From contig NZ_BLJA01000001.1 in NCBI RefSeq assembly GCF_019972295.1, positions 3,857,259 through 3,921,258 of the forward strand: 64,000 bases of DNA, written 5' to 3'. Every line of letters begins with the position of its first letter. Positions within the stretch are counted from its first letter, which is position 1. This document shows, in pieces, positions 2,012 to 59,724 of the stretch. The notes beneath the pieces are model-generated. The model was not told where the DNA came from. It did not search any database and saw only the letters and a list, made by a program, of their open reading frames with translations. The position numbers and the translations under genes were made by a program. The DNA comes from Geobacter sp. AOG2. GTDB lineage: Bacteria; Desulfobacterota; Desulfuromonadia; Geobacterales; Pseudopelobacteraceae.

Positions 2012-2040
2012 GGGAGGGCGGGCCGTGACGACGCAAGTGA

Positions 2041-2068
2041 AAGCCCCCGGAGGTGATCCGGGGGCCTC
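2041..2068 (+). terminator. Intrinsic terminator-like hairpin
   Basis: GCCCCCGGA and TCCGGGGGC form a GC-rich stem with a short loop after the small HTH gene. The following T stretch is weak (CCTCTGTT). The core matches the terminator half of the repeated element found elsewhere in this window, for example at 7759-7790 and 19336-19368. Confidence 0.65.
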
Positions 2069-2218
2069 TGTTGGATATTTGGAGGACACAAGATAATGAA
2101 TTGTTTCCCGCCATTCGCTCATTCGGTCCATAATTTGCGCATAACTCTATCGCAATCGGCGCGTTTTGGGTACACTGCCGGAATCGACTCATTATATCTC
2201 ACCAGGAGAGCGCGCCGC

Positions 2219-4234: not shown

Positions 4235-5554
4235 TTATAGTACCCCAATCTTTGCCTCAAGTGGCACCAGAAAAAGCTGCGTAAAATCAGCTTGCATAGG
4301 TGTGACCGAGTCCAAGAGTGAAACTATTTTTTCTGCCAACACTGCCTTTGAATGCGAGATGCCGTTGCGGGAAATAATATCTCCTGTAATTTGTATCTCT
4401 GGACCAATGCCAAAAATCTTGTCGACGATGGAGGGAGGATAGTAATACTCGATGCCATTTTTAGGCCACTTAACAATGTGGTTAGAAGTTAGTCCCATTG
4501 TGATCAACTGCTCCGGCAAACCAGCGGTATGGGTCGAGTCAAGGATCACAAAGATTCTGTCTCTATATGGACTTTTCTGTAAATCAGAAAAGAGCCCTTT
4601 CGCAATACTCAATATTTCTTTAATTCTGCTGTCGGAGTGTGCAGGTACAACACTTATTAAGTATCCTGGATAACGAAGAGCGAGCACACGATCAATGAAG
4701 CTATGATCAGATTTACCTTCAACCAATATTATTGCAGAAGGCAAGTAAAGAGTTTCGAAGCGATTACCTAGTAAAAAGAAATGGATGTCATTAAAATCAG
4801 TTTGTGTCTCAACTTTTCTAACAGATATTTCGTCACCATTTTTTTCAACAGTGAAGTTATTATAGATGTTATTCCTATCTAAAAATATTGTTGAATGTGT
4901 TGCAAAAACAATAGTCTTAATATGAGGAAAATATTTTTCACGGTGTTTACGATCGAAAAGAAAATCAGCTAATATTCCTTGTGCTTCTGGGCTAATACCA
5001 AGCTCAGGCTCATCAATAAGAAATTTTTCATAATCAGTATCCATAAGGCTTGTAACAAGAGTTGCTATCAACCTAAAACCAGAGCTTGTATATGAAATGT
5101 TGTGCCCTCCACATGAAATATATTTCTGAGACATTGAATTATCATAGACAGTATGACGAATTTCGAGTTTAACACCCATAAGTTCATAAATTATCTCTAT
5201 TAAGTGTTCTCTTTTTTCGTCAGACAGTTCTGAAATTGCTTGTTGGAGATTGACCGGCGAATTATCAATATTTTGCTGTTGCTGCTGCCATTGCTGCTGC
5301 CATTGCTGCCACTTCTCATCTTTCCTATTCCTGTTTGGAATGTAATAGCCCAGCAAATTAAAATTCTGATATCTCGCCGGCCCTAGGTAAGAAGAATTCT
5401 TTCCCCATTGCTGAGTTAACGCCTTCAACAGAAAAGACTTCCCGCAATTATTTCTGCCAACAAGCACAGAGTATTCCGAATCATGTATTTGTTGGAGAGC
5501 AGAGGCTGATTCATCTGATAAGCGAGTTCCTGGCTTTTGATCATATTGATACAT
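4235..5554 (-). CDS. OLD-like ATPase with TOPRIM-like nuclease domain (putative defence gene)
   Basis: A 439-residue AAA/ABC-type ATPase joined to a TOPRIM-like domain. The ATPase part shows Walker A GRNNCGKS (about 33-40), a signature-like YTSSGFRL, Walker B FLIDEPELG and the H-loop FATHS. The TOPRIM-like part begins with ILVEGKSD (about 277-284) and continues to FVILDSTH (about 331-338), where the usual DxD is DST. OLD-family proteins and the related GajA and AriA act in phage defence, so that role is inferred. A glutamine/tryptophan tract lies near residues 82-93. The gene is strikingly AT-rich and is bracketed by 20-bp direct repeats, both signs of transfer. ATG 5554 has AAGGA upstream. 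No partner nuclease or effector gene is adjacent. Confidence 0.75.
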   Translation of the reverse strand: MYQYDQKPGTRLSDESASALQQIHDSEYSVLVGRNNCGKSFLLKALTQQWGKNSSYLGPARYQNFNLLGYYIPNRNRKDEKWQQWQQQWQQQQQNIDNSPVNLQQAISELSDEKREHLIEIIYELMGVKLEIRHTVYDNSMSQKYISCGGHNISYTSSGFRLIATLVTSLMDTDYEKFLIDEPELGISPEAQGILADFLFDRKHREKYFPHIKTIVFATHSTIFLDRNNIYNNFTVEKNGDEISVRKVETQTDFNDIHFFLLGNRFETLYLPSAIILVEGKSDHSFIDRVLALRYPGYLISVVPAHSDSRIKEILSIAKGLFSDLQKSPYRDRIFVILDSTHTAGLPEQLITMGLTSNHIVKWPKNGIEYYYPPSIVDKIFGIGPEIQITGDIISRNGISHSKAVLAEKIVSLLDSVTPMQADFTQLFLVPLEAKIGVL

Positions 5555-5682: not shown

Positions 5683-5870
5683 ACCCACCCTTCTACTCCC
5701 CGCGAATGCAAAATTCAATTGCAAAATCAGTATGTTAAAAATATTAACACTATCCCGAAAGTGTTAAAAAAATTAACATGAACGGCCATCCGCCGAACCC
5801 GCTGTTTTCATACGAAAAAAGGCCCCCGGATCGTCTCCGGGCGCCTTTTTTGTGTCGTTATGATACACGC
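5683..5870 (-). repeat. Terminator-GTTAA element, copy A (minus strand)
   Basis: On the minus strand this begins with a GATACA-like block and the terminator hairpin at 5818-5850 (GGCGCCCGGA / TCCGGGGGCC with T runs). It continues with two tandem palindromes (GTTAATTTTTTTAAC and GTTAATATTTTTAAC) and the tail TGATTTTGCAATTGAA...GTAGAAGG. The terminator follows the minus-strand gene at 5959-6819, and the tail points at the OLD-like gene 129 bases away. Confidence 0.85.
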
Positions 5871-5958: not shown

Positions 5959-6819
5959 CTACCTTCTCTCGTTCCTTTCGTCCGCCCCCCTTCCGGGGTT
6001 TTCCTGCCGAGGTCCGGGCTGTTGCGGCGCTTCGCGGCGTTGCGGCTGTTGCATATGTTGCTGCTGTTGCTGCGGCTGTACGCGTTGCTGTTGCATGTGT
6101 TGCTGTTGTTGCATGTGTTGCTGTTGTTGCATGTGTTGCTGTTGTTGCATGTGTTGCTGTTGCTGCATGTGTTGCTGTTGTTGTATGTGTTGCTGTTGTT
6201 GTATGTGTTGCTGTTGTTGTATGTGTTGCTGTTGCTGTATGTGTTGCTGTTGTTGCGGCTGCATGCGCTGCGGCTGGGCCTCCCTGGGTTGCGGTCTGAC
6301 CGTTTGCGGTTGCGGCCGGGTCTGCTGCGGCCTTTGCGGTTGCGGCCGCGCCTGGGGCCTCATGCCCTGGACACCCCACGTCTGCTGTTTCTCCCAATGC
6401 CGGTTCTTTTCCCAATTCCTCCAGTTGCGCTGGACCTGTTGGGGCGGTATGCGCCGGTAGTTCCACTGACGCCCTTGCCAGCGATGCTCCCGGTAGTCGT
6501 TCCTCCACCCCGGCGGTACCCAGGTATAAAAGGATGGAATCCGTCGATAGTAGACCCAGTCCGAGTCATAGTAATGGGAGCGGTACCAGCGCCCGTCCCA
6601 CAGACGCCACCACCAGCCGTTGTAGAAGAAGATGTCCGCATCCATGTCGGGCACGGCATAGACATAGGTCCCCGGTATCACCACCACCTCGGGAGGCGCG
6701 GAAAATACGACGGGTGGCGGCAGGGAAATGCTGATGTCCACATTCACCCCGGCCATCGCCGCCGGCGGAACAACGCATGTCAACGCCGATAGCATCGTCA
6801 GCACGAGTAATCTTTTCAT
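5959..6819 (-). CDS. Exported glutamine-rich repeat protein
   Basis: An 286-residue protein with a signal peptide (MKRLLVLTMLSALTCVVPPA, cleavage near AMA). The next 130 residues are rich in Trp and Tyr (FFYNGWWWRLWDGRWY, residues about 63-78), a type of exported protein common in Geobacter-like genomes with no known function. The C-terminal half is low complexity: Pro/Gln/Arg, then about nine copies of a six-residue QQQHMQ/QQQHIQ unit coded by an 18-bp repeat. ATG 6819 is preceded by GAGGGGG and gives the signal peptide; a start at 6837 would add six residues. A promoter lies at 6946-6973. Role unknown; a cell-envelope location is likely. Confidence 0.72.
   Translation of the reverse strand: MKRLLVLTMLSALTCVVPPAAMAGVNVDISISLPPPVVFSAPPEVVVIPGTYVYAVPDMDADIFFYNGWWWRLWDGRWYRSHYYDSDWVYYRRIPSFYTWVPPGWRNDYREHRWQGRQWNYRRIPPQQVQRNWRNWEKNRHWEKQQTWGVQGMRPQARPQPQRPQQTRPQPQTVRPQPREAQPQRMQPQQQQHIQQQQHIQQQQHIQQQQHIQQQQHMQQQQHMQQQQHMQQQQHMQQQQHMQQQRVQPQQQQQHMQQPQRREAPQQPGPRQENPGRGADERNERR
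6098..6259 (-). repeat. 18-bp tandem repeat coding for QQQHM/IQ units
   Basis: About nine copies of an 18-bp unit (plus strand TGTTGCTGTTGTTGCATG) with variants that swap Met for Ile. The unit length is a multiple of three, so copy changes would lengthen or shorten the protein without breaking the frame. Confidence 0.9.
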
Positions 6820-6945
6820 GGTATGACCCCCTCTCACATCGTTCCCGCTGCCGGTCTCCCTCCGCCCCCCGTGAAAGCCCGGCGCGCGGCGCGCAGGGGA
6901 GATTCGGGGACCGGGTACGGCTGCCGGTCAGGTGCCTGTGAGGTT

Positions 6946-7641: not shown

Positions 7642-7736
7642 TTTGCAACCGCCACGGCAAACCTTTTTCCGTGCCGGTGCGGATGGTTGTGCACAGGAGG
7701 TGCGGTGTTCCCATCGGGAGGCCGTAGCGGGCGCAA

Positions 7737-7930
7737 TGGGTCATAATGATACAAAACAAGGCCTCCGGCGGCGATCCGGGGGCCTTTTTTCGTGTGATAC
7801 CGTGGTGTTCGGGGAAGCAGTCTGAAATGGTCTTTTTATGTTAATTTTTTTAACACTTTCGGGGTGAGTGTTAATTATTTTAACATATTGATTTTGCGAT
7901 TGAAATTTGTGAATACGGAGAGTAGAAGGT
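7737..7930 (+). repeat. Terminator-GTTAA element, copy B
   Basis: TGGGTCATAATGATACA, terminator hairpin 7759-7790, GTTAATTTTTTTAAC at 7840-7854, GTTAATTATTTTAAC at 7870-7884, then TTGATTTTGCGATTGAAA and TAGAAGG. It lies in the divergent gap between brnT and the chemoreceptor at 8149. Since no plus-strand gene ends here, the terminator half has no obvious client. Confidence 0.85.
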
Positions 7931-8148
7931 GAGTGGGTTTTAACAGGATTGGCGAAGGCGTGCGGGGGGCTGTGCGGAAGGGTTTCCGGGGCCGGCGGTC
8001 ACGTCTCCCGTCCCCGTAATTCCCTTCCTGGGTTTCGCATGCGCTCTCCGCCATGCCGCCCTTTGCCGATGTTACGTGCGCGAGCCGGGCCTGTCCGGCC
8101 CCTGGTGCAACCGTGTTCAGTCAACCAATCTGAAAGGACTATACCGTC

Positions 8149-9777
8149 ATGAACAGCTCGAACATGAAAATCGGGGTCAGGCTAACTATCGGGTTCGGTG
8201 TCGTTCTGCTGTTCCTCGTCATCCTGGGGGTCTATTCCATCAGCCGCCTGTCGTCCATAAACGGCGAGGTCCAGCGGGTCACCGACGACCGCTGGCCGAA
8301 GGCCCGTTCCCTGGCGGAGGTCAAAGATAATATGAACGTGATCGCCAGGGCGGTGCGGAACATGATCCTGAGCGACGACCCGGCCGACAACCAGAAGGAG
8401 AAGAAAAGGATTCTGGAAGCGCGCGAGGCGATCACGAAAAAAATCGACGAGTTGGACAAGGGCATCCAGTCCGGCGAGGGCAAGGCCATGATGGCAAGGC
8501 TCCAGGAAAAGCGCGCCGCCTATGTCAAATCCCAAGACCTGATAATCGAACTGATCGAAAACCGGAAAAAGGATGAGGCCGGAAAAGAGCTTTTCACGAG
8601 CGTCCGCAAGACCCAGGGCGAATATTTCAAGGCTATCGACGATATCATCCTGTTCCAGGGGAAGCAGATGGACAAGGCGGGTGACGACGTTGCGGCGTCG
8701 GTGAAACGAACAAGCAGCATCACCGTCATCATCCTCGTCCTCTCCGGCGTTCTTTCCGTGTTCACGACGCTCTTCATCATGAGGAGCATCATCCGCCCCA
8801 TATCCGAGCTTGTGGCCGCGAACGAGAGGCTTGCCAACGGCGACCTGACCGTAACGATTGCGGTGACCGGCGCCGACGAGATCGGCCACCTGGCGGAGTC
8901 GTCGCGCAGGGTGATCGGCAACCTGCGGGATATACTCGGCAAGGTGGCGGACACCTCCAGCCAGGTGGCCTCCGCCGCAAGCCAGCTTCAGGCCACCGCG
9001 GAGCATATCGCCACCGGGGCGGAGGAGGTCGCCTCGCAGACGAATACCGTGGCCACGGCGAGCGAGGAGATGGCCGCAACCAGCACCGATATCGCCCGCA
9101 ACTGCACCATGGCGGCGGAAAGCTCGCAGCAGACGAGCCGCTCCGCCACAAACGGGGCGAGTGTCGTCCAGGAGACCATCAACGGCATGGGCAGGATTGC
9201 GGAACGCGTGAAGCAATCGGCCCAAACCGTTGAAAGCCTCGGCGCGCGCTCCGAGCAGATCGGGGCGATCGTCGGCACGATCGAGGATATTGCGGATCAA
9301 ACCAACCTGCTGGCATTGAACGCCGCCATCGAGGCCGCCAGGGCGGGCGAACAGGGGAGGGGCTTTGCCGTGGTCGCGGACGAGGTGCGCGCGCTTGCGG
9401 AGCGGACGACCAAGGCGACCAAAGAGATCTCCGACATGATAAAAACCATCCAGAACGAGACCAAATCCGCCGTCTCCGCAATGGAGGAGGGTGTTTCGGA
9501 GGTCGAGAAGGGGGCGGCAAGCTCGGAAAAATCGGGGCAGGCCCTGGAAGAGATCTTGTCCCGGATCAATGAAGTGACCATGCAGATCAACCAGATAGCG
9601 ACGGCGGCGGAGGAACAGACCGCCACCACCAGCGAGATAACGTCGAACATTCAGGAGATTACCGAGGTCGTCCATCAGTCCTCCCGGGGGGCGAGCGAGA
9701 CGGCCGCCGCGGCGTCGCAACTGTCGTCGAACGCCGTGATTCTCCAGGAGTTGGTCGGCAGGTTCAGATTGACGTAA
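8149..9777 (+). CDS. Methyl-accepting chemotaxis protein (4HB sensor)
   Basis: Transmembrane chemoreceptor that controls CheA activity. The first helix (residues about 12-34) and second helix (about 190-212) bracket a periplasmic four-helix-bundle domain of about 150 residues. A HAMP domain follows ([20 protein letters not shown]), then the coiled-coil signalling domain whose hairpin tip contains [20 protein letters not shown]. The C-terminal end lacks a CheR-docking pentapeptide. 542 residues is normal for the class. The ligand is unknown; 4HB domains bind diverse small molecules. ATG 8149 has AAAGGA 12 bases upstream; ATG 8164 is possible. Element B lies 219 bases upstream. The next small gene follows within 35 bases. 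Confidence 0.93.
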
Positions 9778-15106: not shown

Positions 15107-15546
15107 GGGACGCCACGCCGGTTGATCCATGCCGCGGGAAAGCAGGCATGATGCCCCGGTAATTCGGCTTCCCTATCCCGCCTGCGTCTACCATCGCCTG
15201 ACGATATCCACCGAGATCTCCACCGCCGGAACCGTTCCCCTGTTCTCCAGCCAGTGCATGGTGTTCCGGTCCTCGGGCCAGCCCGCCCCCGGCCCGTAGT
15301 CCGTGGCGACCCCATCCCGGTGCGCGGTGATCGTTCCCTGCACGACATAGGCGGTGCCCGGCAGGTCCTTATTGTCGTGCACCGGGCCGAAGATGCCGCC
15401 GGGTTCTATGGTCACCATGCGCATCCGCAGTTGGCGCCCCGCCATGCCCTCGACCTCGGGGCCAAGGTGGACCGTTGTCAGTAACTTCACCGTAACGCCT
15501 TTCGTCTCGGGTGCCGCCTGCCCGCTATCCATAGTGTCGCCTCCTT
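15107..15546 (-). repeat. 440-bp duplicated segment containing a cupin gene (copy 1)
   Basis: Nearly identical to 16635-17075, including about 80 bases after the gene (with the hairpin CATGCC...GGCATG) and about 14 bases before it. The duplication therefore covers gene, ribosome site and terminator. Confidence 0.85.
15188..15532 (-). CDS. Cupin domain protein (paralogue 1)
   Basis: A 114-residue single-domain cupin. The metal-binding motif region reads GPVHDNKDLPGTAYVVQG (residues about 49-66), with the family's second motif near DRNTMHWLENRGTVP. Compared with paralogue 2 it has N where that has H (HDNKD versus HDHKD), so one metal ligand may be missing. ATG 15532 has GGAGG 8 bases upstream. 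Cupins of this type bind small ligands or act as dioxygenases or isomerases; substrate unknown. Confidence 0.8.
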   Translation of the reverse strand: MDSGQAAPETKGVTVKLLTTVHLGPEVEGMAGRQLRMRMVTIEPGGIFGPVHDNKDLPGTAYVVQGTITAHRDGVATDYGPGAGWPEDRNTMHWLENRGTVPAVEISVDIVRRW

Positions 15547-16634: not shown

Positions 16635-17075
16635 GGGACACCACGCCGGTTGATCCATGCCGCCGGAAAAACAGGCATGATGCCCCGGTAATTCGGCTTC
16701 CCCATCCCGCCTGCGCCTACCATCGCCTGACGATATCCACCGAGATCTCCACCGCCGGAACCGTTCCCCGGTTCTCCAGCCAGTGCAGGGTGTTCCGGTC
16801 CTCGGGCCAGCCCACCCCCGGCCCGTAGTCCGTGGCGACCCCATCCCGGTGGTCGGTGATCGTTCCCTGCAGGATATAGACGGTGCCCGGCCGGTCCTTG
16901 TGGTCGTGCACCGGGCCGAAGACGCCGCCGGGTTCGATGGTCACCATGCGCATCCGCAGTTGGCGCCCCTCCATGCCCTCGATCTCGGGGCCGAGGTCGA
17001 CCGTTGACAGTAACTTTACCGTAACGCCTTTCGTTTCGAGTGCCGCCTGCCCGCTATCCATAGCGTCGCCTCCTT
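16635..17075 (-). repeat. 440-bp duplicated segment containing a cupin gene (copy 2)
   Basis: Counterpart of 15107-15546. Both copies have the same orientation, so the event was a direct duplication that now flanks the exported cupin. Confidence 0.85.
16717..17061 (-). CDS. Cupin domain protein (paralogue 2)
   Basis: A 114-residue cupin almost identical to 15188-15532. First motif GPVHDHKDRPGTVYILQG keeps both histidines; second motif DRNTLHWLENRG. ATG 17061 has GGAGG upstream. A longer frame running to 17730 passes through the SRPBCC gene in another frame and is not real. It lies 180 bases after the ArsR/SRPBCC operon in the same direction and could be read through from it. Confidence 0.82.
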   Translation of the reverse strand: MDSGQAALETKGVTVKLLSTVDLGPEIEGMEGRQLRMRMVTIEPGGVFGPVHDHKDRPGTVYILQGTITDHRDGVATDYGPGVGWPEDRNTLHWLENRGTVPAVEISVDIVRRW

Positions 17076-18181: not shown

Positions 18182-18382
18182 AATGGGTCATAATGATACA
18201 GTCGGCGGCCCCCGGAGGTGTTCCGTGGTTTTTTTGCGTGTGATAACGGCCGGTTCGGTGAAGACGGCTGAAATGGTCTTTTTATGGTAATTTTTTTAAC
18301 ATTTCCGGGATTGTGTTAAATATTTTAACATATTGATTTTGTTGTTGAAGTTTGCGGCTGTACGGGTAAGATGGGAAGGGGT
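18182..18382 (+). repeat. Terminator-GTTAA element, copy C
   Basis: Same layout as copy B: TGGGTCATAATGATACA, hairpin CCCCCGGAGG/TTCCG with T7, the TGATAACGGCCGGTTCGG block, a variant palindrome GGTAATTTTTTTAAC, GTTAAATATTTTAAC, then TTGATTTTGTTGTTGAAG. The tail is degenerate. A second, decayed terminator half precedes it at 18129-18170. It lies between divergent genes and points at the hemerythrin gene 130 bases away. Confidence 0.8.
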
Positions 18383-18511: not shown

Positions 18512-18973
18512 ATGGAAATGCCGGAGATCGACGCAAGCCGGGAGCAGCCGGAGGACGAAACGCAATTCATCGCTTGGAAGCACGAGTACAGCGTCGGCGT
18601 CAAAAAGCTCGACAAGCAGCACATGAAGATCATCAACATCCTCAACGACATCCACAACTACCGGAAGGAAAAGGCCGGCCCGCTCGATCTGGAAAACATC
18701 CTGAACGATCTGCTGTTGTACACCAGGACCCATTTCGCCGACGAGGAGGGGCTTCTCCGCCTTGTGGGCTATCCCAAGTTTACCGAGCACCAGGAAGTCC
18801 ATTACGGGATGGCGCAAAAGACGCAGGCCATCTGCGAGGCCGGTCTCGATGATCGCGACGACCTCTCCCTGGAGTTGCTGACCTTTTTGCGAAACTGGTG
18901 GGTGGACCATCTGGAGAACGAGGACCGGCGCTACGTGCCGTACCTGGCCCTGTTCATGGCGGACCGGGACTGA
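18512..18973 (+). CDS. Bacteriohemerythrin
   Basis: Diiron oxygen-binding protein, 153 residues. The ligand set is complete: H in KQHMKI (about 38), H and E in THFADEE, H and H in TEHQEVHY, and H and D in VDHLENED. An N-terminal extension of about 20 acidic residues precedes the fold. In anaerobes such proteins bind, deliver or sense O2. ATG 18512 has GGAGG upstream. It follows element C, and another hemerythrin domain occurs in the GGDEF protein at 59738-61561. Confidence 0.92.
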   Translation: MEMPEIDASREQPEDETQFIAWKHEYSVGVKKLDKQHMKIINILNDIHNYRKEKAGPLDLENILNDLLLYTRTHFADEEGLLRLVGYPKFTEHQEVHYGMAQKTQAICEAGLDDRDDLSLELLTFLRNWWVDHLENEDRRYVPYLALFMADRD

Positions 18974-19308: not shown

Positions 19309-19313
19309 GGCGG

Positions 19314-19497
19314 GTGGGTCAAAACGATACAAAAAAGGCCTCCGGAGGCGATCCGGGGGCCTTTTTTCTTGCAATATCGGCAGGTTCGGGGAGGACGGGA
19401 AAATGTTAAAAAAATTAACATTTCCGGGACGGCGTTAATATTTTTAACACGTTGATTTTACAATTGAAATTTGCGATTTCAGGGAGTAGAAGGGGGG
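19314..19497 (+). repeat. Terminator-GTTAA element, copy D
   Basis: The cleanest copy. Hairpin GGCCTCCGGA / TCCGGGGGCC with T6 at 19336-19368; palindrome GTTAAAAAAATTAAC at 19405-19419; GTTAATATTTTTAAC at 19434-19448; then TTGATTTTACAATTGAAA and GGAGTAGAAGG. It terminates the upstream hypothetical gene and points at the phosphoesterase 233 bases downstream. Confidence 0.9.
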
Positions 19498-19550
19498 ATG
19501 GGATGGAGAAGGTTGGCGGGGCGTTTTTGGGGTAAGGCTTGCGGGCTGAG

Positions 19551-19580
19551 AATTAAGTATACGGTCCCCGGATTAATTCT
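19551..19580 (+). repeat. Short dispersed repeat (AATTAAGTATAC type), copy 2
   Basis: AATTAAGTATACGGTCCCC followed by GGATTAATTCT; relative of 4197-4222. Confidence 0.5.
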
Positions 19581-19729: not shown

Positions 19730-21667
19730 ATGGTAAAGGATGATCCGGCACACGACAGCATCGATTCAACCTTCAACAGCAGCGTGAATCGGCGGGAGTT
19801 CATCAAGGTTTCCGCCGGCGCGCTTGCATGCGCTTCCATCAGTCCGGTGCTGTTTGGCTGCGGTACGAGTGGCGGGTCTCAGGTTGCGGGGTACCCGATC
19901 AGTTCCACCGCCTACACGACGCTTCAGAAAACGATTGTGCCCGGTACGACCACCGGAGCGCTCGCACCCCCGTACCTGAACCAGATTTCGCTTTACGACC
20001 AGAATGGCTATGGCGAGTGGTCGTATGGAGCCCCTCTCCCCAGCGAGAAGCGCACCGACATCATGCCGCCGGCCTATCAGGCCCCGGCAATCAACAACCC
20101 GGCAAAGCTTTTGCGATTCTTCGCCATGACGGATGTCCACATCACGGACAAGGAATCGCCTTCCCAGTTGATCTACATGCAGCCGCTGGACAAATACGGC
20201 GTCGAAGCCGGCGTCACGTCGGTCTATTCGCCGACGATGATGTACACGACCCAGATGCTTGATGCCGTCATCCAGACGGTAAATGCCCTCCATAAACAGG
20301 ACCCGATCGATTTCGGCATCTCCCTCGGCGACAGTTGCAACAGTACCCAGTACAATGAGTTGCGGTGGTACATTGACGTCATCGACGGCAAGGTCATCGA
20401 CCCCAGCTCCGGCGCCCATGCCGGTACCGGCACCATTGACTACCAGAAGCCGTTCAAAGCAGCGGGGCTCGACCCGTCGATCCCCTGGTATCAGGCCAGG
20501 GGCAATCACGACAGTTTCTGGCTCGGCTCGGTCCCCCCCGATGTCCAAGACGGCAATGGCCGCAGCCTGCGCGGCTCCTGCGCGAGTGATGAAGTTCTCG
20601 CCATAGTCGACCTTCTCGCCAGCCCCAACAATATCTACAATACCTCGTGGCCCCAGTATTACATGGGGGTCATCGACGGTTCGACGCCAAACGGCAACAT
20701 CATCAAGTATGGCGCCGTCTCCGGCTTAAGCAGCCCCCCCAAGGTCGTTGCCGACCCGGACCGCCGATCGCTCGCTTCCGCCGAGTGGGTCAGGGAATTC
20801 TTCAATACGTCCACCCGCCCGGCGGGGCACGGTTTCAATCTGGTCCCGGCCGGCCAGGAGGCCGGTTTCGCCTGCTACAGCTTCGTCCCGAAATCCGACA
20901 TCCCGATCAAGGTCATTGTCCTGGACAATACCCAGCGGGAGGACGACGGTTCGATAAGCATCCACGGGCACGGCTTCCTCGACCAGGCGCGCTGGGACTG
21001 GCTCAAGGCCGAGCTTGCCGCTGGAGATGCCACCGCCACCGACGCCGGCCAGTTGATGATCATTGCAGCCCATATACCCATCAGCGTCCAGAAAGCAGGC
21101 ACCTGGATGGAGTGGTTCGACAATACGGCCGCTCCCGCTTCTCCCGCCAGCCCGTCCCCAATGGCCAACGCCGTGACGCTGGCGGACTTGCTCGCGGAAC
21201 TCCATAGCCACCCGAACCTCCTGATGTGGATCGCCGGGCATCGCCATGTCAATGCCGTGAAAGCGTTTGCGTCACCCGACCCGAGCGCCCCCGAGAACGG
21301 ATTCTGGCAGGTCGAGACCTCATCGCTCCACGATTTCCCGCAGCAGTTCCGCACATTCGACATCAACCTCAACAGCGACTACTCCGTTTCGATCGTCACG
21401 ACCAACGTGGACCCGGCGGTCAAGGACGGAACGCCGGCCGCGAAGTCGCTGAAATATGCCGTCGCGGCGCAGCAGATAGTCAAGTCGGCGGGCATCTACC
21501 AAGCCGATGTGTCCACCAACTGCCTGGTGGACCCGGTCACCCAGGCTTCAACGGGCGTGGTCGATCCAAGCATCCGCCCGATGCCGACCGGTTCGTACAA
21601 TGCGGAACTGTTCAAGCAGCTTAGCCCGGCCATGACAGCCGCATTGCAGAAACAATTTCCCGCCTAG
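19730..21667 (+). CDS. Tat-exported metallophosphoesterase
   Basis: A 645-residue calcineurin-like phosphoesterase, probably secreted folded. The Tat motif NRREFIK is at about residues 20-26, followed by a hydrophobic stretch and FGCG, a possible lipidation site. Metal-binding motifs are all present: AMTDVH, GDSC, ARGNHDS, AAHIP and AGHRH. The match resembles the PPA1498-type family of long Tat phosphoesterases. Substrate unknown. ATG 19730 has GAGGGAGC upstream; the frame from 19691 adds 13 residues before the Tat region. The next gene is also a phosphatase-like lipoprotein, separated by a long palindrome. Confidence 0.88.
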   Translation: MVKDDPAHDSIDSTFNSSVNRREFIKVSAGALACASISPVLFGCGTSGGSQVAGYPISSTAYTTLQKTIVPGTTTGALAPPYLNQISLYDQNGYGEWSYGAPLPSEKRTDIMPPAYQAPAINNPAKLLRFFAMTDVHITDKESPSQLIYMQPLDKYGVEAGVTSVYSPTMMYTTQMLDAVIQTVNALHKQDPIDFGISLGDSCNSTQYNELRWYIDVIDGKVIDPSSGAHAGTGTIDYQKPFKAAGLDPSIPWYQARGNHDSFWLGSVPPDVQDGNGRSLRGSCASDEVLAIVDLLASPNNIYNTSWPQYYMGVIDGSTPNGNIIKYGAVSGLSSPPKVVADPDRRSLASAEWVREFFNTSTRPAGHGFNLVPAGQEAGFACYSFVPKSDIPIKVIVLDNTQREDDGSISIHGHGFLDQARWDWLKAELAAGDATATDAGQLMIIAAHIPISVQKAGTWMEWFDNTAAPASPASPSPMANAVTLADLLAELHSHPNLLMWIAGHRHVNAVKAFASPDPSAPENGFWQVETSSLHDFPQQFRTFDINLNSDYSVSIVTTNVDPAVKDGTPAAKSLKYAVAAQQIVKSAGIYQADVSTNCLVDPVTQASTGVVDPSIRPMPTGSYNAELFKQLSPAMTAALQKQFPA

Positions 21668-28997: not shown

Positions 28998-29026
28998 GCA
29001 AGCCCCGGTCTCTTTCCGGGGGAACG

Positions 29027-29353
29027 GGCGAAAACGATATGATCGGAGGTTCCCGGAGGCGTTCCGGGGGCCTTTTTTTGTGTGAAAACGGCAGGGGGAC
29101 AGCCAGCAGGCATATCAGGGGCGATACCACAAATCTTTTGGATTGGGGCGGGGGCGGTGGATGGGGCCGTTTTGTGTCGAAACGACACAACCCGTGCGTT
29201 CCGGTTGTCTATTGCCGTGTGATAACGCGGCCTTTTGGGAAGCGGGCCGGAATAGTCCTTTTATGTTACTTTTTTTAACATTTTTAAAAGAGTGTTAATA
29301 TTTTTAACATTTTGAAATTGCTGTTGAAATGTGTGTTTACAAGGCGTAGAAGG
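29027..29353 (+). repeat. Terminator-GTTAA element, copy E (enlarged)
   Basis: Starts with GGGCGAAAACGATATGA and the hairpin CCCGGAGG/CCGGGGG with T7. About 130 extra bases follow, then a second decayed terminator half (GACACAACCC...GTGTGATAACGCGG at 29184-29229). The 3' half has TGTTACTTTTTTTAACA, GTTAATATTTTTAAC, TTGAAATTGCTGTTGAAA and TAGAAGG. It points at the glutaredoxin gene 157 bases downstream. Confidence 0.8.
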
Positions 29354-29509
29354 TTGTTCGTGCCTTGCGGTGTCATTGACTTGCAAGGGGGGATTGTTGT
29401 TGCGCGGGGGGCCCGGACGGAGGGAGTCGGGGCCGCCCGCCGCCTTTCCCCGACATGAGCGTCCGGCGGTGCACCCGAACCGGTCGAGCCCTGTGAAAAA
29501 GGAGCCCCC

Positions 29510-30073
29510 ATGCGCTGCCCGAGCTGTGGTTACCTGCGGAAGCCGGAGGATCTGGCCCCGGAATGGCAATGTCCCGCCTGCCAGGTGGTGTATGAGAAGG
29601 CGGCGCTCAAGAAGGCGTTCGAGCCGGCGAACCGGGGGGCGTTTACCTCTTCCGCCCGAGCCGTCGATCCGCCGCGGGAGGCCGGGTCGTGGTGGGGCCT
29701 CAAGGTCGTGATCGTGGTGGCGCTCCTGGGTGGGCTCTCGTATTTCGGCTACGCCTTTTTCAACAACGCCGCCGTCACCAGCGAGACCGCCAACGGCATG
29801 GTGGCGGCCAGCCCCGTGGCGGCGCCGGACAAGACGGTGCTCCTCTATTCCCGCGCCGGGTGCGGTTATTGCGACAAGGCCCGGGAGTTCCTCCAGCGGC
29901 ACGGGATCGACTTCGAGGAGATCGACGTCATCACCAGCGAGCGGGGGAAAGATGATTTCCAGAAACTGGGCGCGGCGGGCACGCCGATCCTGGTGGTGGC
30001 GGACAGCAAGGTGGTGGGGTACGACGAGGCGGTGCTGACGGAGGTGCTCAAGTCCAAGGGGCTGTGGAAGTGA
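29510..30073 (+). CDS. Membrane-anchored zinc-ribbon glutaredoxin-like protein
   Basis: A 187-residue fusion. N-terminal zinc ribbon with CPSC and CPAC (residues 3-6 and 21-24), one membrane helix (VVIVVALLGGLSYFGYAFF), then a glutaredoxin domain with the redox motif GCGYCDKA and GTPILVV, which carries the conserved cis-proline. With ribbon inside, the glutaredoxin domain would lie in the periplasm. It could reduce or isomerise exported thiols, perhaps cytochromes, but this is inference. ATG 29510 has GGAG. It converges with the next kinase, 9 bases away. Confidence 0.82.
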   Translation: MRCPSCGYLRKPEDLAPEWQCPACQVVYEKAALKKAFEPANRGAFTSSARAVDPPREAGSWWGLKVVIVVALLGGLSYFGYAFFNNAAVTSETANGMVAASPVAAPDKTVLLYSRAGCGYCDKAREFLQRHGIDFEEIDVITSERGKDDFQKLGAAGTPILVVADSKVVGYDEAVLTEVLKSKGLWK

Positions 30074-35256: not shown

Positions 35257-35356
35257 CATAATGACAGCGGTTGCCGACGGGCCGGTTTTTTTATCCTTGC
35301 GGAGAGAGCGGCAAAAAAATCACATATCGATTTTATCGTTGAAAATTGAGTATACG
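35257..35356 (+). repeat. Degenerate terminator-GTTAA element, copy H
   Basis: GCATAATGACAG, a short GACGGGCCGG stretch followed by T7, and CACATATCGATTTTATCGTTGAAA, which matches the tail of the full elements. The palindromes are lost. It points at the gene at 35537. Confidence 0.4.
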
Positions 35357-35536: not shown

Positions 35537-36757
35537 ATGGAATATATGATCGGCAGACAGGCCATCGTGAGCAGGACGGAGGAGGTCGTGGCCTACGAAC
35601 TCCTGTTCAGGACGACCCAATCCCCGGCCTGGGCCGATGTGCAGGACGACGTCCAGGCAACGTCCAACACGATCATGCACGCCCTTTCCGGCTTCGGCAC
35701 CAAATCCGTCATGGGGCGGCACCGGGGCTTCGTCAACGTGGACGCGGAACTGCTCATGAGCGACGCCCTGGAGATCCTGCCCCCCTCCCTGTTCGGGCTG
35801 GAACTGCTGGAAACCATGGACATCACCCCCCAGGTGATCGACCGCTGCCGCGAGCTCAAGGCCAAGGGATATGTTCTGGCCCTGGACGACCACACCTACG
35901 ATCCCCGCTTCAACGAGCTGTACGACGGCGTGGTGAGCGTCGTAAAGATCGACATGCTGGAGACGGACCTGAACGCCCTGCCGGCCGCGATGGAGCGCCT
36001 CCGGGAGTATCCCGTGAAGCTCCTGGCGGAAAAGGTGGACACCACGGAACGCTATCAGGAGTGCCAGCGCCTGGGGTTCGACCTGTTCCAGGGGTATGTC
36101 TTCTCCCAGCCGTCGGTCATGAAGAAACGGCGCTGGGACGGCTCGGCCTCCGTCATCTTCAAGCTGATGCAGCAGCTTACCGACGACGCCGATCTGGACG
36201 AGGTGGAGCGGACCATCAAGGAAAGCCCGCCCCTGGTCTACAAACTCCTGGTCCTGGTCAACTCCATCTCCATGGGGCTGCGGTCCAAGATCTCCAGCCT
36301 CCGCCACGCCATCGTGATGATCGGGCTGCGGCAGCTCAGGCGCTGGGTCCAACTGGCGGTCTTCGCCACGGACGAGGATACCTGCCTGAACGACCCGGTT
36401 ATGGACCTGGCCGCGGTGCGGGCGGTGTTCCTGGAAGAGCTGGTGAAGCTGACCCCCCTGGTGCGCAAGGACCGCCATGCCCCGGACGAGGGATACATGA
36501 TCGGCATCCTGTCCATCCTCACCAAGGTGTTCGACATCTCCATGGAGGAGATCCTGGGGAACCTGCACCTGCCCGACGAGGCCATCGACGCCCTGTTGCG
36601 CCGGGAAGGGGATTACGGCCGCCTGCTCAGCCTGGTGGAACTGGTGGAAAACCTGGAGTTCGAGGAGGCCGCCGAACGCCTGGAAGCGCTCGAGATACCG
36701 CTTCTGTCGGTGCTGGACTGCCAGAAGAAGGCCTATAGCTGGCGTTTCGGGGTGTAA
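35537..36757 (+). CDS. EAL-HDOD (YuxH-type) signalling protein
   Basis: A 406-residue protein of two domains. The EAL-like domain (1-200) has VVAYELLFR in place of the EAL motif, LALDDHTYD, LLAEKVDT and FQGYVFSQP; several catalytic residues differ from active phosphodiesterases, so c-di-GMP cleavage is unlikely. The HDOD domain follows (SASVIFKLMQQL, then SSLRHAIVMIGLRQLRRWVQ). Members of this type act in regulation of motility or twitching. The gene follows a diguanylate cyclase, which suggests a common c-di-GMP pathway. ATG 35537 or 35546. Confidence 0.85.
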   Translation: MEYMIGRQAIVSRTEEVVAYELLFRTTQSPAWADVQDDVQATSNTIMHALSGFGTKSVMGRHRGFVNVDAELLMSDALEILPPSLFGLELLETMDITPQVIDRCRELKAKGYVLALDDHTYDPRFNELYDGVVSVVKIDMLETDLNALPAAMERLREYPVKLLAEKVDTTERYQECQRLGFDLFQGYVFSQPSVMKKRRWDGSASVIFKLMQQLTDDADLDEVERTIKESPPLVYKLLVLVNSISMGLRSKISSLRHAIVMIGLRQLRRWVQLAVFATDEDTCLNDPVMDLAAVRAVFLEELVKLTPLVRKDRHAPDEGYMIGILSILTKVFDISMEEILGNLHLPDEAIDALLRREGDYGRLLSLVELVENLEFEEAAERLEALEIPLLSVLDCQKKAYSWRFGV

Positions 36758-36791
36758 GGGCAGAGGAGGGCGGCCGCAAGTACCCAATAAT

Positions 36792-36889
36792 GTGGGATAA
36801 AATGATACAAAACAGGGCTCCCGGAGATAATCCGGGGGCCTTTTTTTGTGTGATGCCGCAGGGTTCCGGAAAGAGGTCCGGAACGGCTG
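36792..36889 (+). repeat. Terminator half of the GTTAA element, copy F
   Basis: GTGGGATAAAATGATACA, hairpin CTCCCGGAG.../CCGGGGGCC with T7 and the TGATGCCGCAGGGTTCCGG block. There are no palindromes or tail. It sits between convergent genes (35537 plus, 36966 minus). Confidence 0.75.
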
Positions 36890-51256: not shown

Positions 51257-51341
51257 CACCGGATACACGAAAATACTAAACCATCCGCGAGGATGGGGCG
51301 GAAAGCCTACAGGGTCTCACCGAGACAGCCGGGTCGCCGAA
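51257..51341 (+). promoter_or_regulatory. GEMM-I riboswitch, cyclic AMP-GMP (GEMM-Ib) type
   Basis: The conserved blocks occur in order: CACGAAAATACTAAACC, stem ATCC-GCGA-GGAT with a GNRA loop, GGGGCGGAAAGCC, stem GTCTCACCGAGAC, and AGCCGGGTCGCCG. Aligned with the Vibrio Vc2 aptamer, the base at position 20 is A instead of G, the mark of aptamers that prefer 3',3'-cyclic AMP-GMP. The intercalating A47 is kept. In Geobacter this class controls cytochrome and extracellular electron transfer genes. The gene downstream is a diheme protein. Confidence 0.87.
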
Positions 51342-51479: not shown

Positions 51480-53456
51480 ATGAAGATCGGCGGCAAAGCG
51501 GTATTGTTTTTCATCTTTACCCTGGCACTTGTTGCGGCATTGCAGATAGGGGGCCGGGAGTCGCGGGCCCAATCGAGTTATTTCACCAGTCAGGGCTGTT
51601 CCGGCTGCCATACGTCGGCCGCGGCCACCTGTAACGGCTGCCACGCCCACGGCACCCACTCAAGCAGCGCGAAGAGCGATATCAACGTGAAGGGCGCCAC
51701 CGACGCGGCCAGCTACGCCCCCGGCGCCACCGTCACCGTGACCATCAGCGGCGGCTACCGCAGCGGCTGGGTCCGGGCGGTCCTCTACGACCAGAACCAG
51801 GTGGAGCTGGCCCGGTCCACGGGCAATGCCAGCGACATGGGGAGTTCCGCCACCCTGCCGACGACCCTGAGCGCCCCCGCGCCGGCCACGGCGGGCACCT
51901 ATACCTGGAAGGTGGCGTGGTACGGCAACAGGTATGATGCAGGCTCCGCGTCTTTCGGTTCCGGCTGGACCGACGATCCCACTAACGCCGACCACGGCTA
52001 CCAGACCGTGAGCACCAATTCGTTCACCGTCACCTCCCCGGCCGATACCACGCCGCCCACGGTCACGGTCTTCACCCTCCCGACCACGGCCGCGAGCCTG
52101 ACCGTGCCGGTAAGCGCCCTGAGCGCCACGGACAACACGGGGGTCACCGGCTATCTGATCACCACCAGCGCCACGGCCCCGGCCGCAAGCGCTGCGGGCT
52201 GGACCGCTACCGCCCCCGCCAGCGCGACCGCCCCGGCCGCGGGCAGCGTCACCTTCCACGCCTGGGCCAAGGATGCGGCGGGTAATGTGTCGGCCGGCGT
52301 CAGCGCCAGCGTGACCATCACCCTCCCGGATACCACGCCGCCCACGGTCACGGCCTTTACCCTCCCGGCCACGGCCGCGAGCCTGACCGTGCCGGTAAGT
52401 GCCCTGAGCGCTACGGATAACACGGGGGTCACCGGCTATCTGATCACCACCAGCGCCACGGCCCCGGCCGCAAGCGCTGCGGGCTGGACCGCGACCGCCC
52501 CCGCCAGCGCGACCGCCCCGGCTGCGGGCAGCGTCACCTTCTACGCCTGGGCCAAGGATGCGGCGGGCAACGTCTCCGCGGCCAAAAGCGCCACGGTGGC
52601 CGTTTCCGCCCCTGCTGCCGCCAACCTGGTCCTGACCGTTTCCACCGTGGCCGACGGCTCGTTCACCAATAACCCGACCCTCAACGTGAGCGGCACGGTC
52701 ACCGACACGGTCGCCATCCAGTCGGTCACCGTCAACGGCCAGGCCGTTACCGTGGCCGCGGACGGCTCGTTTAGCACCGTCGTCACCCTGCAGGCGGGGG
52801 CGAACACCATTGCGGTGGTTGCCCTGGACAGCGCCGGAATCCAGAAGAGCGACACCCGCACCGTGACCTATGATCCGACCGCCCCGGCGATCACGGTCTC
52901 CGCCCCGGCCGACAACAGCACCACGGCGGTGCAGCTCGTGACCGTGACCGGCTCCGTGAGCGAGACCTCCACGGTTGCCGTGGCCGTCAACAGCGACGCC
53001 CCCCAGGCCGCCACCATCAGCGGCACCACCTACACCACCTCCGTCAACCTGGCCGAAGGGGTCAACACCATCACCGTCACCGCCACGGATCAGGCGGGCA
53101 ACAGTTCCAGCGTCAAGCGGACCGTGACCTACAGCGCCCCCACCGGGACCGATCTCAACCTGGCGATCACCTATCCGAGCCAGGATACGGTCACCAGCCA
53201 CCAGCGCATCTACCTGCGGGGCAAGGTCGCCGATCCCCAGGGACAGGTGGCGGTCACCGTCGCCGTGGACGGCGCCACCTACACCCCCGAGGTGGAGAAC
53301 GGCTGGTTCCAGCAGCGGCTTACCTTCACCGCCGCCAAAAAGTACACCATCACCGTCACCGCCACGGATCAGGCGGGCAACAGCGGCAGCGCCGTGCGCA
53401 ACGTGATCTACCGGCCGCTGAAGGCGAACGGCAGGAAACAGCACCACGACGACTGA
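51480..53456 (+). CDS. Diheme c-type cytochrome with Ig-like repeats
   Basis: A 658-residue exported protein under the riboswitch. Signal peptide (VLFFIFTLALVAALQIGG), then two heme-binding motifs CSGCH and CNGCH (about 37-41 and 48-52). An Ig-like domain with WVRAVLYDQNQVELA follows, then two nearly identical 95-residue repeats (DTTPPTVT...AKDAAGNVSA), and three more Ig/glucodextranase-B-like domains to residue 645. It probably lies at the outer surface. ATG 51480 has GGAG and opens the signal peptide; ATG 51411 also has GGAG and would add 23 residues. Confidence 0.88.
   Translation: MKIGGKAVLFFIFTLALVAALQIGGRESRAQSSYFTSQGCSGCHTSAAATCNGCHAHGTHSSSAKSDINVKGATDAASYAPGATVTVTISGGYRSGWVRAVLYDQNQVELARSTGNASDMGSSATLPTTLSAPAPATAGTYTWKVAWYGNRYDAGSASFGSGWTDDPTNADHGYQTVSTNSFTVTSPADTTPPTVTVFTLPTTAASLTVPVSALSATDNTGVTGYLITTSATAPAASAAGWTATAPASATAPAAGSVTFHAWAKDAAGNVSAGVSASVTITLPDTTPPTVTAFTLPATAASLTVPVSALSATDNTGVTGYLITTSATAPAASAAGWTATAPASATAPAAGSVTFYAWAKDAAGNVSAAKSATVAVSAPAAANLVLTVSTVADGSFTNNPTLNVSGTVTDTVAIQSVTVNGQAVTVAADGSFSTVVTLQAGANTIAVVALDSAGIQKSDTRTVTYDPTAPAITVSAPADNSTTAVQLVTVTGSVSETSTVAVAVNSDAPQAATISGTTYTTSVNLAEGVNTITVTATDQAGNSSSVKRTVTYSAPTGTDLNLAITYPSQDTVTSHQRIYLRGKVADPQGQVAVTVAVDGATYTPEVENGWFQQRLTFTAAKKYTITVTATDQAGNSGSAVRNVIYRPLKANGRKQHHDD
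52044..52613 (+). repeat. 285-bp tandem repeat within the cytochrome gene
   Basis: Two adjacent copies (52044-52328 and 52329-52613), each 95 codons, near-identical at the DNA level. This shows recent duplication of an Ig-like domain. Confidence 0.9.
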
Positions 53457-58362: not shown

Positions 58363-58463
58363 GGGGGGAGGACCACCAAAATTTGCTCCATGATAGTGGC
58401 AGGTTACCGCCTTCGGCCGCTGGCGGCGGGGCCGGATTTTCCGAAGGATGGCGCGGCTGGTTT

Positions 58464-58526
58464 AGGTTGATATTTTTAACACACTGATTTTATTGTTGAA
58501 AATTTGTTGTTGCGGAGGTAGAAGGG
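58464..58526 (+). repeat. 3' half of the GTTAA element, copy G
   Basis: GTTGATATTTTTAAC, then CTGATTTTATTGTTGAAA and GGTAGAAGG. No terminator half. It lies between the divergent heat-shock operon and the MASE3 gene 105 bases downstream. Confidence 0.72.
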
Positions 58527-58629
58527 AGCTTGAGAAATTTAATAGAAAAGATGGCTCAAATGAGTCTCCAAAAGTTGAATACGTTGCCTCCACCCGCATA
58601 CCGTTAGACAAATACACGACGGAGAACAT

Positions 58630-59724
58630 ATGGAAAATACAGGAACGAGTTCCATCGGACATAGCAAACAGATGTACTGGGTTTTTATCTGCGCGGTGAT
58701 CGTCGGCCTGTATTTGACGACTAAGGTAAACTATCTGCTGTTCCACAGCATTATTGAATTATTCAGCATCGTTATTGCCTCTACCGTTTTTATCATTACC
58801 TGGAACTCGGTACGGTATATCAAGAACCCCTATCTCATTACTGTCGGCATATCATGTATTTTTGTCGCAGCATTGGATTTGCTGCATACGCTTTCCTATA
58901 AGGGGATGCCGATATTTACTGATTATGATTATTACGCGAATCAACTGTGGATAGCAGCCAGATATCTTGAAAGCATAACGATGCTATCGGCGTTCATTCT
59001 TCTGAAAAAGGGTAAAAATATAAATTATAATAGTATATTCATGGGATATTTGTGTATTACGGGTCTGTTGATAGCAAGTATATTTTATTGGAAGATATTT
59101 CCTGTCTGTTTTGTGGAAGGACAGGGATTGACCGAGTTCAAAATATATAGCGAATATATCATCTGTGCCATACTTGTGGCCAGTATTGCTGTTCTTATGA
59201 AGAATAAGATGTATTTTACCGGTAAAGTCTACAAGTATATCCTGCTATCCATACTCTATACGATTGTCTCTGAAGTGGCGTTTACTTTTTATAGTGATAA
59301 CTATGGAATATCCAATCTCGTCGGTCATTATTTAAAGTTCTTTGCCTTTTTAATGACGTACCATGCGATTGTGACAACAGGGATAGAAGATCCTTATCGA
59401 CTGATATTTAATGAATTGAGTGAAACGAACGGGGCTCTCAATAAGGAAATCGAGTTGAGAAAGGGAGCGCAGTCGGACCTTGAAGACGTTATTCTGTCGT
59501 TGAAAAATGCACTGGACGAAATCCGAACGCTGAAAGGCATCATTCCGATATGCAGTTTTTGCAAGAAAATACGTAAGGACGAAAAAAGTTGGCAGCAACT
59601 GGAAACGTACCTATCCGAACATTCCGAAGCCCAGTTCAGCCATGGAGTCTGCCCCGACTGTTATGATGAACAGATGCGGGAAATACGGGAACAGGCAGCA
59701 CATAAGCCGCACCGGGAGCACTAG
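58630..59724 (+). CDS. MASE3 membrane sensor with C-terminal zinc-knuckle-like domain
   Basis: A 364-residue protein. About seven membrane helices make a MASE3 domain (ISCIFVAALDLLHTLSYKGM is typical). A coiled coil follows, then a short domain IPICSFCKKIRKDEKSW ... HGVCPDC with two CxxC pairs, which usually ends PAS kinases or receivers in delta-type proteobacteria. No kinase, GGDEF or other output domain is present. Gene is much more AT-rich than its neighbours. ATG 58630 has GGAGAAC. Confidence 0.8.
   Translation: MENTGTSSIGHSKQMYWVFICAVIVGLYLTTKVNYLLFHSIIELFSIVIASTVFIITWNSVRYIKNPYLITVGISCIFVAALDLLHTLSYKGMPIFTDYDYYANQLWIAARYLESITMLSAFILLKKGKNINYNSIFMGYLCITGLLIASIFYWKIFPVCFVEGQGLTEFKIYSEYIICAILVASIAVLMKNKMYFTGKVYKYILLSILYTIVSEVAFTFYSDNYGISNLVGHYLKFFAFLMTYHAIVTTGIEDPYRLIFNELSETNGALNKEIELRKGAQSDLEDVILSLKNALDEIRTLKGIIPICSFCKKIRKDEKSWQQLETYLSEHSEAQFSHGVCPDCYDEQMREIREQAAHKPHREH

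Follow-up and report, generated by a model that had tools for sequence, protein, structure and literature searches.

Integrons insert gene cassettes at attI, next to a promoter. Putative mobile promoters have been put forward (Matus-Garcia, Nijveen and van Passel 2012; van Passel 2014, both as cited in a passage of PMC8049555), and the Correia elements of Neisseria are promoter-bearing, some of them with an IHF site, as portrayed in part of PMC10969869. In Geobacter metallireducens, four classes of paired, multicopy sites were proposed as putative global-regulator sites, the binding protein not being known; the relevant passages of PMC2700814 count 24 pairs, 21 locations, and 8 pairs for three sets, and they call three of the sets unique to that species, with which our comparison is by description alone. 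A literature search covering open-licence papers found nothing like the element described below.

The element recurs in a 64-kb stretch of DNA from Geobacter sp. AOG2 (the whole stretch analysed, here called the window, to which coordinates refer unless stated otherwise). A first-pass annotation had read it as a promoter/operator module that could define a regulon. A regulon-defining role is not supported by the present analysis, the genes behind the element not being a conserved set. On balance, we lean slightly towards the view that this terminator-operator-promoter unit is an expression dock resembling a mobile promoter, its copies being the seams of cargo exchange between sister species. 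The element may have a regulatory role beside that of a dock.

Layout of the element and its copies in the window

The five full copies reported earlier were borne out in both position and layout, and models built from the family (R3 for the first part of the element, hereafter the terminator half, and R2 for its last part, the promoter half) recover all of them. The element is a discrete unit of about 150-190 bp. It begins with a 17-bp palindrome (consensus TGTATCAAAATGATACA), continues with a GC-rich hairpin and T run and a short GTGTGATAACGG-like block, and carries in its 3' part one or two GTTAA-N5-TTAAC palindromes at fixed spacing, followed by TTGAAA-N17-TAGAAG or a close variant.

The study started from copy 4 (19313..19497, plus strand), with its terminator half at 19313-19377 and its R2 match at 19432-19496. 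Its palindromes lie at 19405-19419 and 19434-19448, TTGAAA at 19464-19469 and, after a 17-bp spacer, TAGAAG at 19487-19492; the gene behind it occupies 19730-21667. Copy 1 is on the minus strand (5683..5870; terminator half 5805-5869, promoter-like half 5686-5752, palindromes 5763-5777 and 5734-5748) and stands before an OLD-like ATPase gene of GC 0.38 (4235-5554). Copy 2 (7735..7932, plus strand) has its terminator half at 7735-7800, its promoter-like half at 7866-7932 and palindromes at 7840-7854 and 7870-7884, with a chemoreceptor gene (8149-9777) behind it. In copy 3 (18182..18382, plus strand; terminator half 18182-18246), ahead of a hemerythrin gene (18512-18973), the promoter-like half is weaker (18311-18365) and the first of the two palindromes, 18286-18300 and 18315-18329, has one mismatch. 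Copy 5 (29023..29356, plus strand) is longer: an extra, weak terminator half at 29171-29225 lies between the regular one (29023-29088) and the promoter-like half (29290-29356), the palindromes are at 29265-29279 (one mismatch) and 29294-29308, and the gene behind encodes a glutaredoxin (29510-30073). Measured between the end of the R1 match and the script-chosen gene start, the distances for the five copies are 128, 213, 132, 230 and 151 bp.

Each half is also found alone, all examples in the window being on the plus strand. A lone terminator half lies at 36791..36856, just 3' of the EAL-HDOD gene (35537-36757), and a weak one at 2017..2078 (28.8 bits). Partial forms had been said to precede genes as well. 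This holds for the lone promoter-like half at 58463..58527, 98 bp ahead of a MASE3 gene (58630-59724, GC 0.41), whereas the form ahead of the EAL-HDOD gene is merely marginal (35322..35356, 16.5 bits). Gene identities proposed earlier were confirmed by Pfam for the AAA_21 ATPase, the chemoreceptor, the hemerythrin, the glutaredoxin, the HDOD+EAL protein and the MASE3 protein, but the gene labelled phosphoesterase had no Pfam match. The element itself was not matched by Rfam in the window at the gathering threshold, which rules out a curated Rfam RNA family as its identity at that threshold. The sole match was a c-di-GMP-I riboswitch at 51265-51341, ahead of a long gene with tandem repeats, two of which, of 285 bp each, lie at 52031-52600 and are 91% identical.

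Other repeats were seen nearby. Just upstream of copy 1, a 292-aa ORF on the minus strand (5959-6837), missed by the gene caller, contains an 18-bp tandem repeat reading HMQQQQ-like. A 300-bp duplication (15135-15434 and 16664-16963, 94% identical) overlaps two similar-looking 114-aa ORFs, and a 39-bp inverted repeat of ACAGAGACACAGAG-like units is found at 1585-1727.

The family in the genus, its edges and its direction

The 3.92-Mb genome has 44 occurrences of the pattern GTTAAWWWWWTTAAC and 0 of a reversed control pattern, and in 225 kb of control stretches from the same genome neither half was matched at the cut-off used; the repetition of the element is thus not due to chance. At E <= 0.01, the promoter-half model has 42 matches in this genome and the terminator-half model 36, mirror and weak matches included. 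Across six genomes of the genus, promoter-half matches number 35 (G000), 23 (G002), 23 (G005), 9 (G004), 31 (G003) and 8 (G001), G001 and G004 being incomplete assemblies (88 and 83%). Copy numbers thus vary between species of the genus. Outside it, three of the 135 other genomes of the order had one weak match each (141 genomes searched), so that within the genomes searched the element is restricted to the genus. A cluster of elements at 3705-3710 kb of the AOG2 genome, in which most pairs are 87-93% identical, shows local copying. Statistics given below refer to 107 copies (33 from G000, 20 from G002, 29 from G003, 22 from G005 and 3 from G001), from which opposite-strand mirror matches, all G004 rows, the G049 row and those rows of G001 and G002 that came without surroundings were excluded.

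The element has sharp boundaries, conservation starting and stopping within a few bases. When 86 copies were aligned on the 5' palindrome, information was at most 0.3 bits outside and 1.4 bits at the first palindrome base, remaining high from there through the hairpin; in copies aligned on a first, partly misplaced TAGAAG anchor, it was 0.3 or less from the fifth base onward. Part of the jump at either anchor arises by construction. In the hairpin, both partners of a stem pair have changed in 8 of the 12 pairs among 40 sequences, and 49 compensatory cells were observed against 15.7 +/- 3.1 in shuffles (39 of the copies in one alignment were drawn from high-scoring copies only), arguing for selection on the hairpin as a structure. 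A GC-rich hairpin with a T run and a stem kept through paired changes is what an intrinsic terminator has. This terminator half was found in 63 of 71 copies with a co-directed upstream gene and in 23 of 29 with a divergent one (100 copies of at least 25 bits). Since it is kept behind divergent genes too, it is not merely the neighbour's terminator. The terminator and promoter halves travel together, a point that the first-pass annotation had missed. At G000:C1:3825522-3825595 (L063), between two convergent genes, a terminator half matches its model on both strands; such a sequence may stop transcription in both directions.

Within the promoter half, the best spacer between TTGAAA and TAGAAG is 17 bp in 82 of the 107 copies; among the 85 copies with two mismatches or fewer over the 12 bases, 79 have it. 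Going by this spacing and by its position, TTGAAA-N17-TAGAAG is a predicted promoter. TTGAAA and the spacer fit sigma-70, but the -10-like box is poor: TAGAAG is without the final T of the sigma-70 box and is not called by a consensus scan. No sigma-54 GG-N10-GC motif was noticed by eye in the promoter half. With the first anchor, which was misplaced by at least 10 bases in about 16 of the 107 copies, up to 86 copies have a palindrome 51-53 bp upstream of the end of TAGAAG and 36 have two, which in 28 of them are spaced 29 bp apart. With the same anchor, the second palindrome matched what we take to be the IHF consensus in 29 of the 107 copies, against 0.5 expected from shuffles. The GTTAA-N5-TTAAC palindromes are putative binding sites for a protein. 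The place of the nearer centre, near -58, suits an activator better than a repressor, as does the frequent second palindrome 29 bp further up.

The claim that the element points uniformly towards the next gene was upheld. The next called gene is co-directed with it in 91 of the 107 copies, and in 30 of 33 in the AOG2 genome. The other three face a long, co-directed, AT-rich ORF missed by the gene caller, one of these being the Pfam-confirmed MASE3 gene; such ORFs were added by a same-strand search in which an opposite-strand gene was impossible by design. The first caller tended to choose antisense ORFs at high-GC loci and to miss AT-rich genes. By that caller none of the 107 copies lies inside a gene, and by a looser one four do. 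Neither random direction nor regular placement within genes, either of which would have spoken against a promoter role, was thus encountered. Exceptions do exist in relatives, for example where an antitoxin-like gene runs convergently towards three related copies. Taken together, the 17-bp spacer, the fixed distance of the palindromes and the uniform direction support the proposed oriented module with promoter/operator-like character.

Genes behind the element and their change between species

The comparison set for the genes behind the element consisted of genes lying after a gap in control stretches of the same genome. In the AOG2 genome, 12 of 31 cargo genes and 2 of 95 controls have a GC of 0.47 or lower (p = 5e-7), a comparison not quite of like with like, the cargo being long same-strand ORFs and the controls genes called by the caller. 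The low GC of such cargo suggests a foreign origin. Genus-wide, Pfam domains in cargo with GC up to 0.50 include SIR2 together with NB-ARC/NACHT-like (STAND-type) domains, another SIR2, TIR with SLOG, caspase, AbiU2, HD-CE, a DUF4011 helicase, HSDR_N and AAA_21 (OLD/AbiEii-like ATPase), and many proteins of this set are without any Pfam match. Several cargo genes are thereby of immunity type. Other cargo looks native (chemoreceptors, hemerythrin, lipoproteins, beta-barrels). A HEPN (RiboL-PSP) match among the cargo fell below the curated cut-off and was discarded. Searched as sets against PADLOC at E <= 1e-5, 85 cargo proteins (of 102 distinct downstream ORFs) matched 102 models and 79 control proteins (of 95 genes) matched 5, these model counts being inflated by related models; searched singly, 8 of 39 cargo proteins matched, two of which had been chosen because of an earlier match. 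At L144 and L165, HD-CE and ORC-CDC6-like genes, each low in GC, lie downstream of an element.

Repeats of other kinds were noted at cargo edges. Two families, noted at L049 5750-7910, L050 5640-5890 and window 19550-19579, consist of GGGTCAGTCCTTG...CAAGGACTGACCC inverted repeats with GTAGACCTGACCC motifs and of GAATTAAGTATACTGTCCCC; both look like REPs, and their link to the Y1 (RAYT) transposases is a guess. Sequences of the type GGAGACCTGACCCC at cargo edges are presumably REP-like as well.

Cargo change was followed in 31 cross-species pairs that share both the upstream gene and the element; they represent about ten loci and are not independent. Homology is lost within 150 bp after TAGAAG in 22 of the pairs, while the remaining 9 retain the same downstream sequence. 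Re-anchoring left all 22 breaks in place and put 16 of them between -2 and +12, the others reaching up to +128. Near-colinear homology was regained in none of the 22, over stretches of up to 2.5 kb, and in one of them the same transposase is found about 1 kb further away. Of seven loci with a close relative (85% identity or more over about 2.5 kb), five break within 6 bp, with p about 4e-6 if breaks fell evenly over a 130-bp leader. In the eleven break pairs of at least 85% identity, the terminator halves are 82-97% and the promoter halves 76-98% identical, whereas over the stretch 61-200 bp further on, ten pairs drop to 34-45% identity and the eleventh to 57%. The breaks fall mostly at the edge of the element rather than inside it, a position not demanded by homologous recombination alone.

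Individual loci illustrate the change. Next to a PilZ-like gene, four species have four arrangements, including one case in which a beta-barrel-like gene and one element copy have been cleanly gained or lost together; downstream of an RNase J-like gene, four species have three different first genes behind the element, two of the species sharing one. These labels in relatives were assigned by eye, as were MqsRA-like and HigA-like. Two pairs look mosaic and would suit recombination between copies: in G003_3781470/G005_833548 the terminator half is 84% and the promoter half 76% identical, and in G002_C26_67662/G003_247947 the values are 75% and 85%, both copies being followed by the same HSDR_N gene. 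No mosaic structure is visible in most elements of the break pairs. Movement of element and gene in one piece was considered and set aside, the best case for it having the promoter half and the gene closer than the terminator half. Inserts are often without a second element on their right side, and there are runs of element-gene units.

Gene turnover is generally high in the genus. In a control stretch compared between the two closest species, G002 and G005, 9 of 35 conserved gaps were broken, against 6 of 12 element pairs from these species (p = 0.16); counting only control insertions above 1 kb, identified by reading (5 of 35), p is 0.02.

Readings of the element and comparison with known systems

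The first-pass annotation was right about an oriented module, but its regulon found less support, 22 of the 31 pairs having unrelated sequence downstream. The OLD-like ATPase and the glutaredoxin each have a match at E <= 1e-20 in one of the six genomes, and orthologues of the EAL-HDOD protein in three species (72-74% identity) have no match to either half in the surroundings covered. Relatives of the chemoreceptor with an element occur in G005 (53%) and G002 (52%), and the closest relative (55%, in G003) is without one. A plain regulon, in which one genus-specific regulator acts on the palindromes and the gene differences reflect ordinary turnover behind conserved promoters, would account for the rigid geometry of palindromes and promoter, for the uniform direction and for the 9 pairs that keep their downstream sequence, and it can draw on the high background turnover. 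The shared, co-varying terminator, however, has no obvious place in a regulon, and neither the bare EAL-HDOD orthologues nor the heterogeneous, often low-GC cargo would be expected from it; we regard it as unlikely. We are a little less doubtful about a non-autonomous transposable element of MITE or Correia type, spreading by transposition with its promoter and terminator while neighbouring genes change secondarily, although this too seems to us rather improbable. In its favour are the sharp ends, the number of copies, the existence of partial ones, the restriction to the genus and the matches to the presumed IHF consensus at the second palindrome, as well as the promoters and occasional IHF sites of Correia elements themselves (passage in PMC10969869). 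It sits poorly with the two consensus ends, which on comparison were not inverted repeats, so that a MITE with inverted ends was rejected; moreover, the AOG2 genome yielded no copy oriented away from its gene, a target duplication was not established and no empty site was found.

The concentration of breaks at the 3' edge (between -2 and +12 in 16 of 22, within 6 bp at five of seven close-relative loci) and the runs of element-gene units recall integrons at attI, and a recombinase could be imagined that joins cargo to this edge site-specifically. Yet no integron integrase (TIGR02249) scored over the cut-off in any of the six genomes, a test on which an integron cassette system as such fails; no common motif was seen by eye at cargo ends, breaks reach +128 and some copies are mosaic inside. 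We hold such cassette capture to be very unlikely. The expression dock, which we prefer, would work as follows. The predicted role of the hairpin is to stop transcription running in from upstream, that of the promoter-like boxes to drive whatever gene lies behind the element. Copies probably recombine with one another, the gene behind the element changing at its 3' edge, and cargo would be moved by homologous recombination between copies; in some cases the joint at the far end would be illegitimate, through the process called homology-facilitated illegitimate recombination. The family would be maintained by selection for acquired genes to be expressed at once and in insulation. A bolder and, in our estimate, unlikely version is a genus-specific capture system without an integron-type integrase, in which foreign genes, some of them for immunity, are swapped into the 3' edge of the docks by dedicated recombination, each being expressed and co-regulated as soon as it is acquired. 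More generally, it is an open question how genes, above all those for immunity, are expressed after their acquisition without suffering read-through or silencing. Portable terminator-operator-promoter units that double as the sites of gene-content change would offer a concrete answer open to testing, in which many independently acquired genes have one shared switch, and the element could guide a search for new immunity genes in this genus, many low-GC cargo genes being without a known domain.

Among known systems, REP/RAYT pairs have a counterpart in the one to three Y1 transposase matches carried by each of the six genomes, two of which, in G003 and G005, lie downstream of an element; the element itself, however, is not a REP hairpin. 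With integron cassettes it shares co-directed, acquired genes beside a promoter, in places as runs of units, but here every copy has its own promoter-like part and the copies are scattered over the chromosome. The G. metallireducens sites resemble it in being intergenic, mostly paired motifs, as the passages of PMC2700814 describe them. Correia elements and other promoter-bearing MITEs are likewise short, dispersed intergenic repeats with promoters (in the part of PMC10969869 that deals with them); the consensus of the present element differs from theirs in having no terminal inverted repeats, and the element in its uniform direction and regular terminator. As with putative mobile promoters, which in the passage of PMC8049555 are closely similar promoter sequences ahead of unrelated genes in one genome, a closely similar promoter-like sequence here precedes non-homologous genes. 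Compared with what that passage describes, the present element is composite, joining a terminator and paired palindromes to the promoter-like part, with sharp ends and a change of cargo at its edge.
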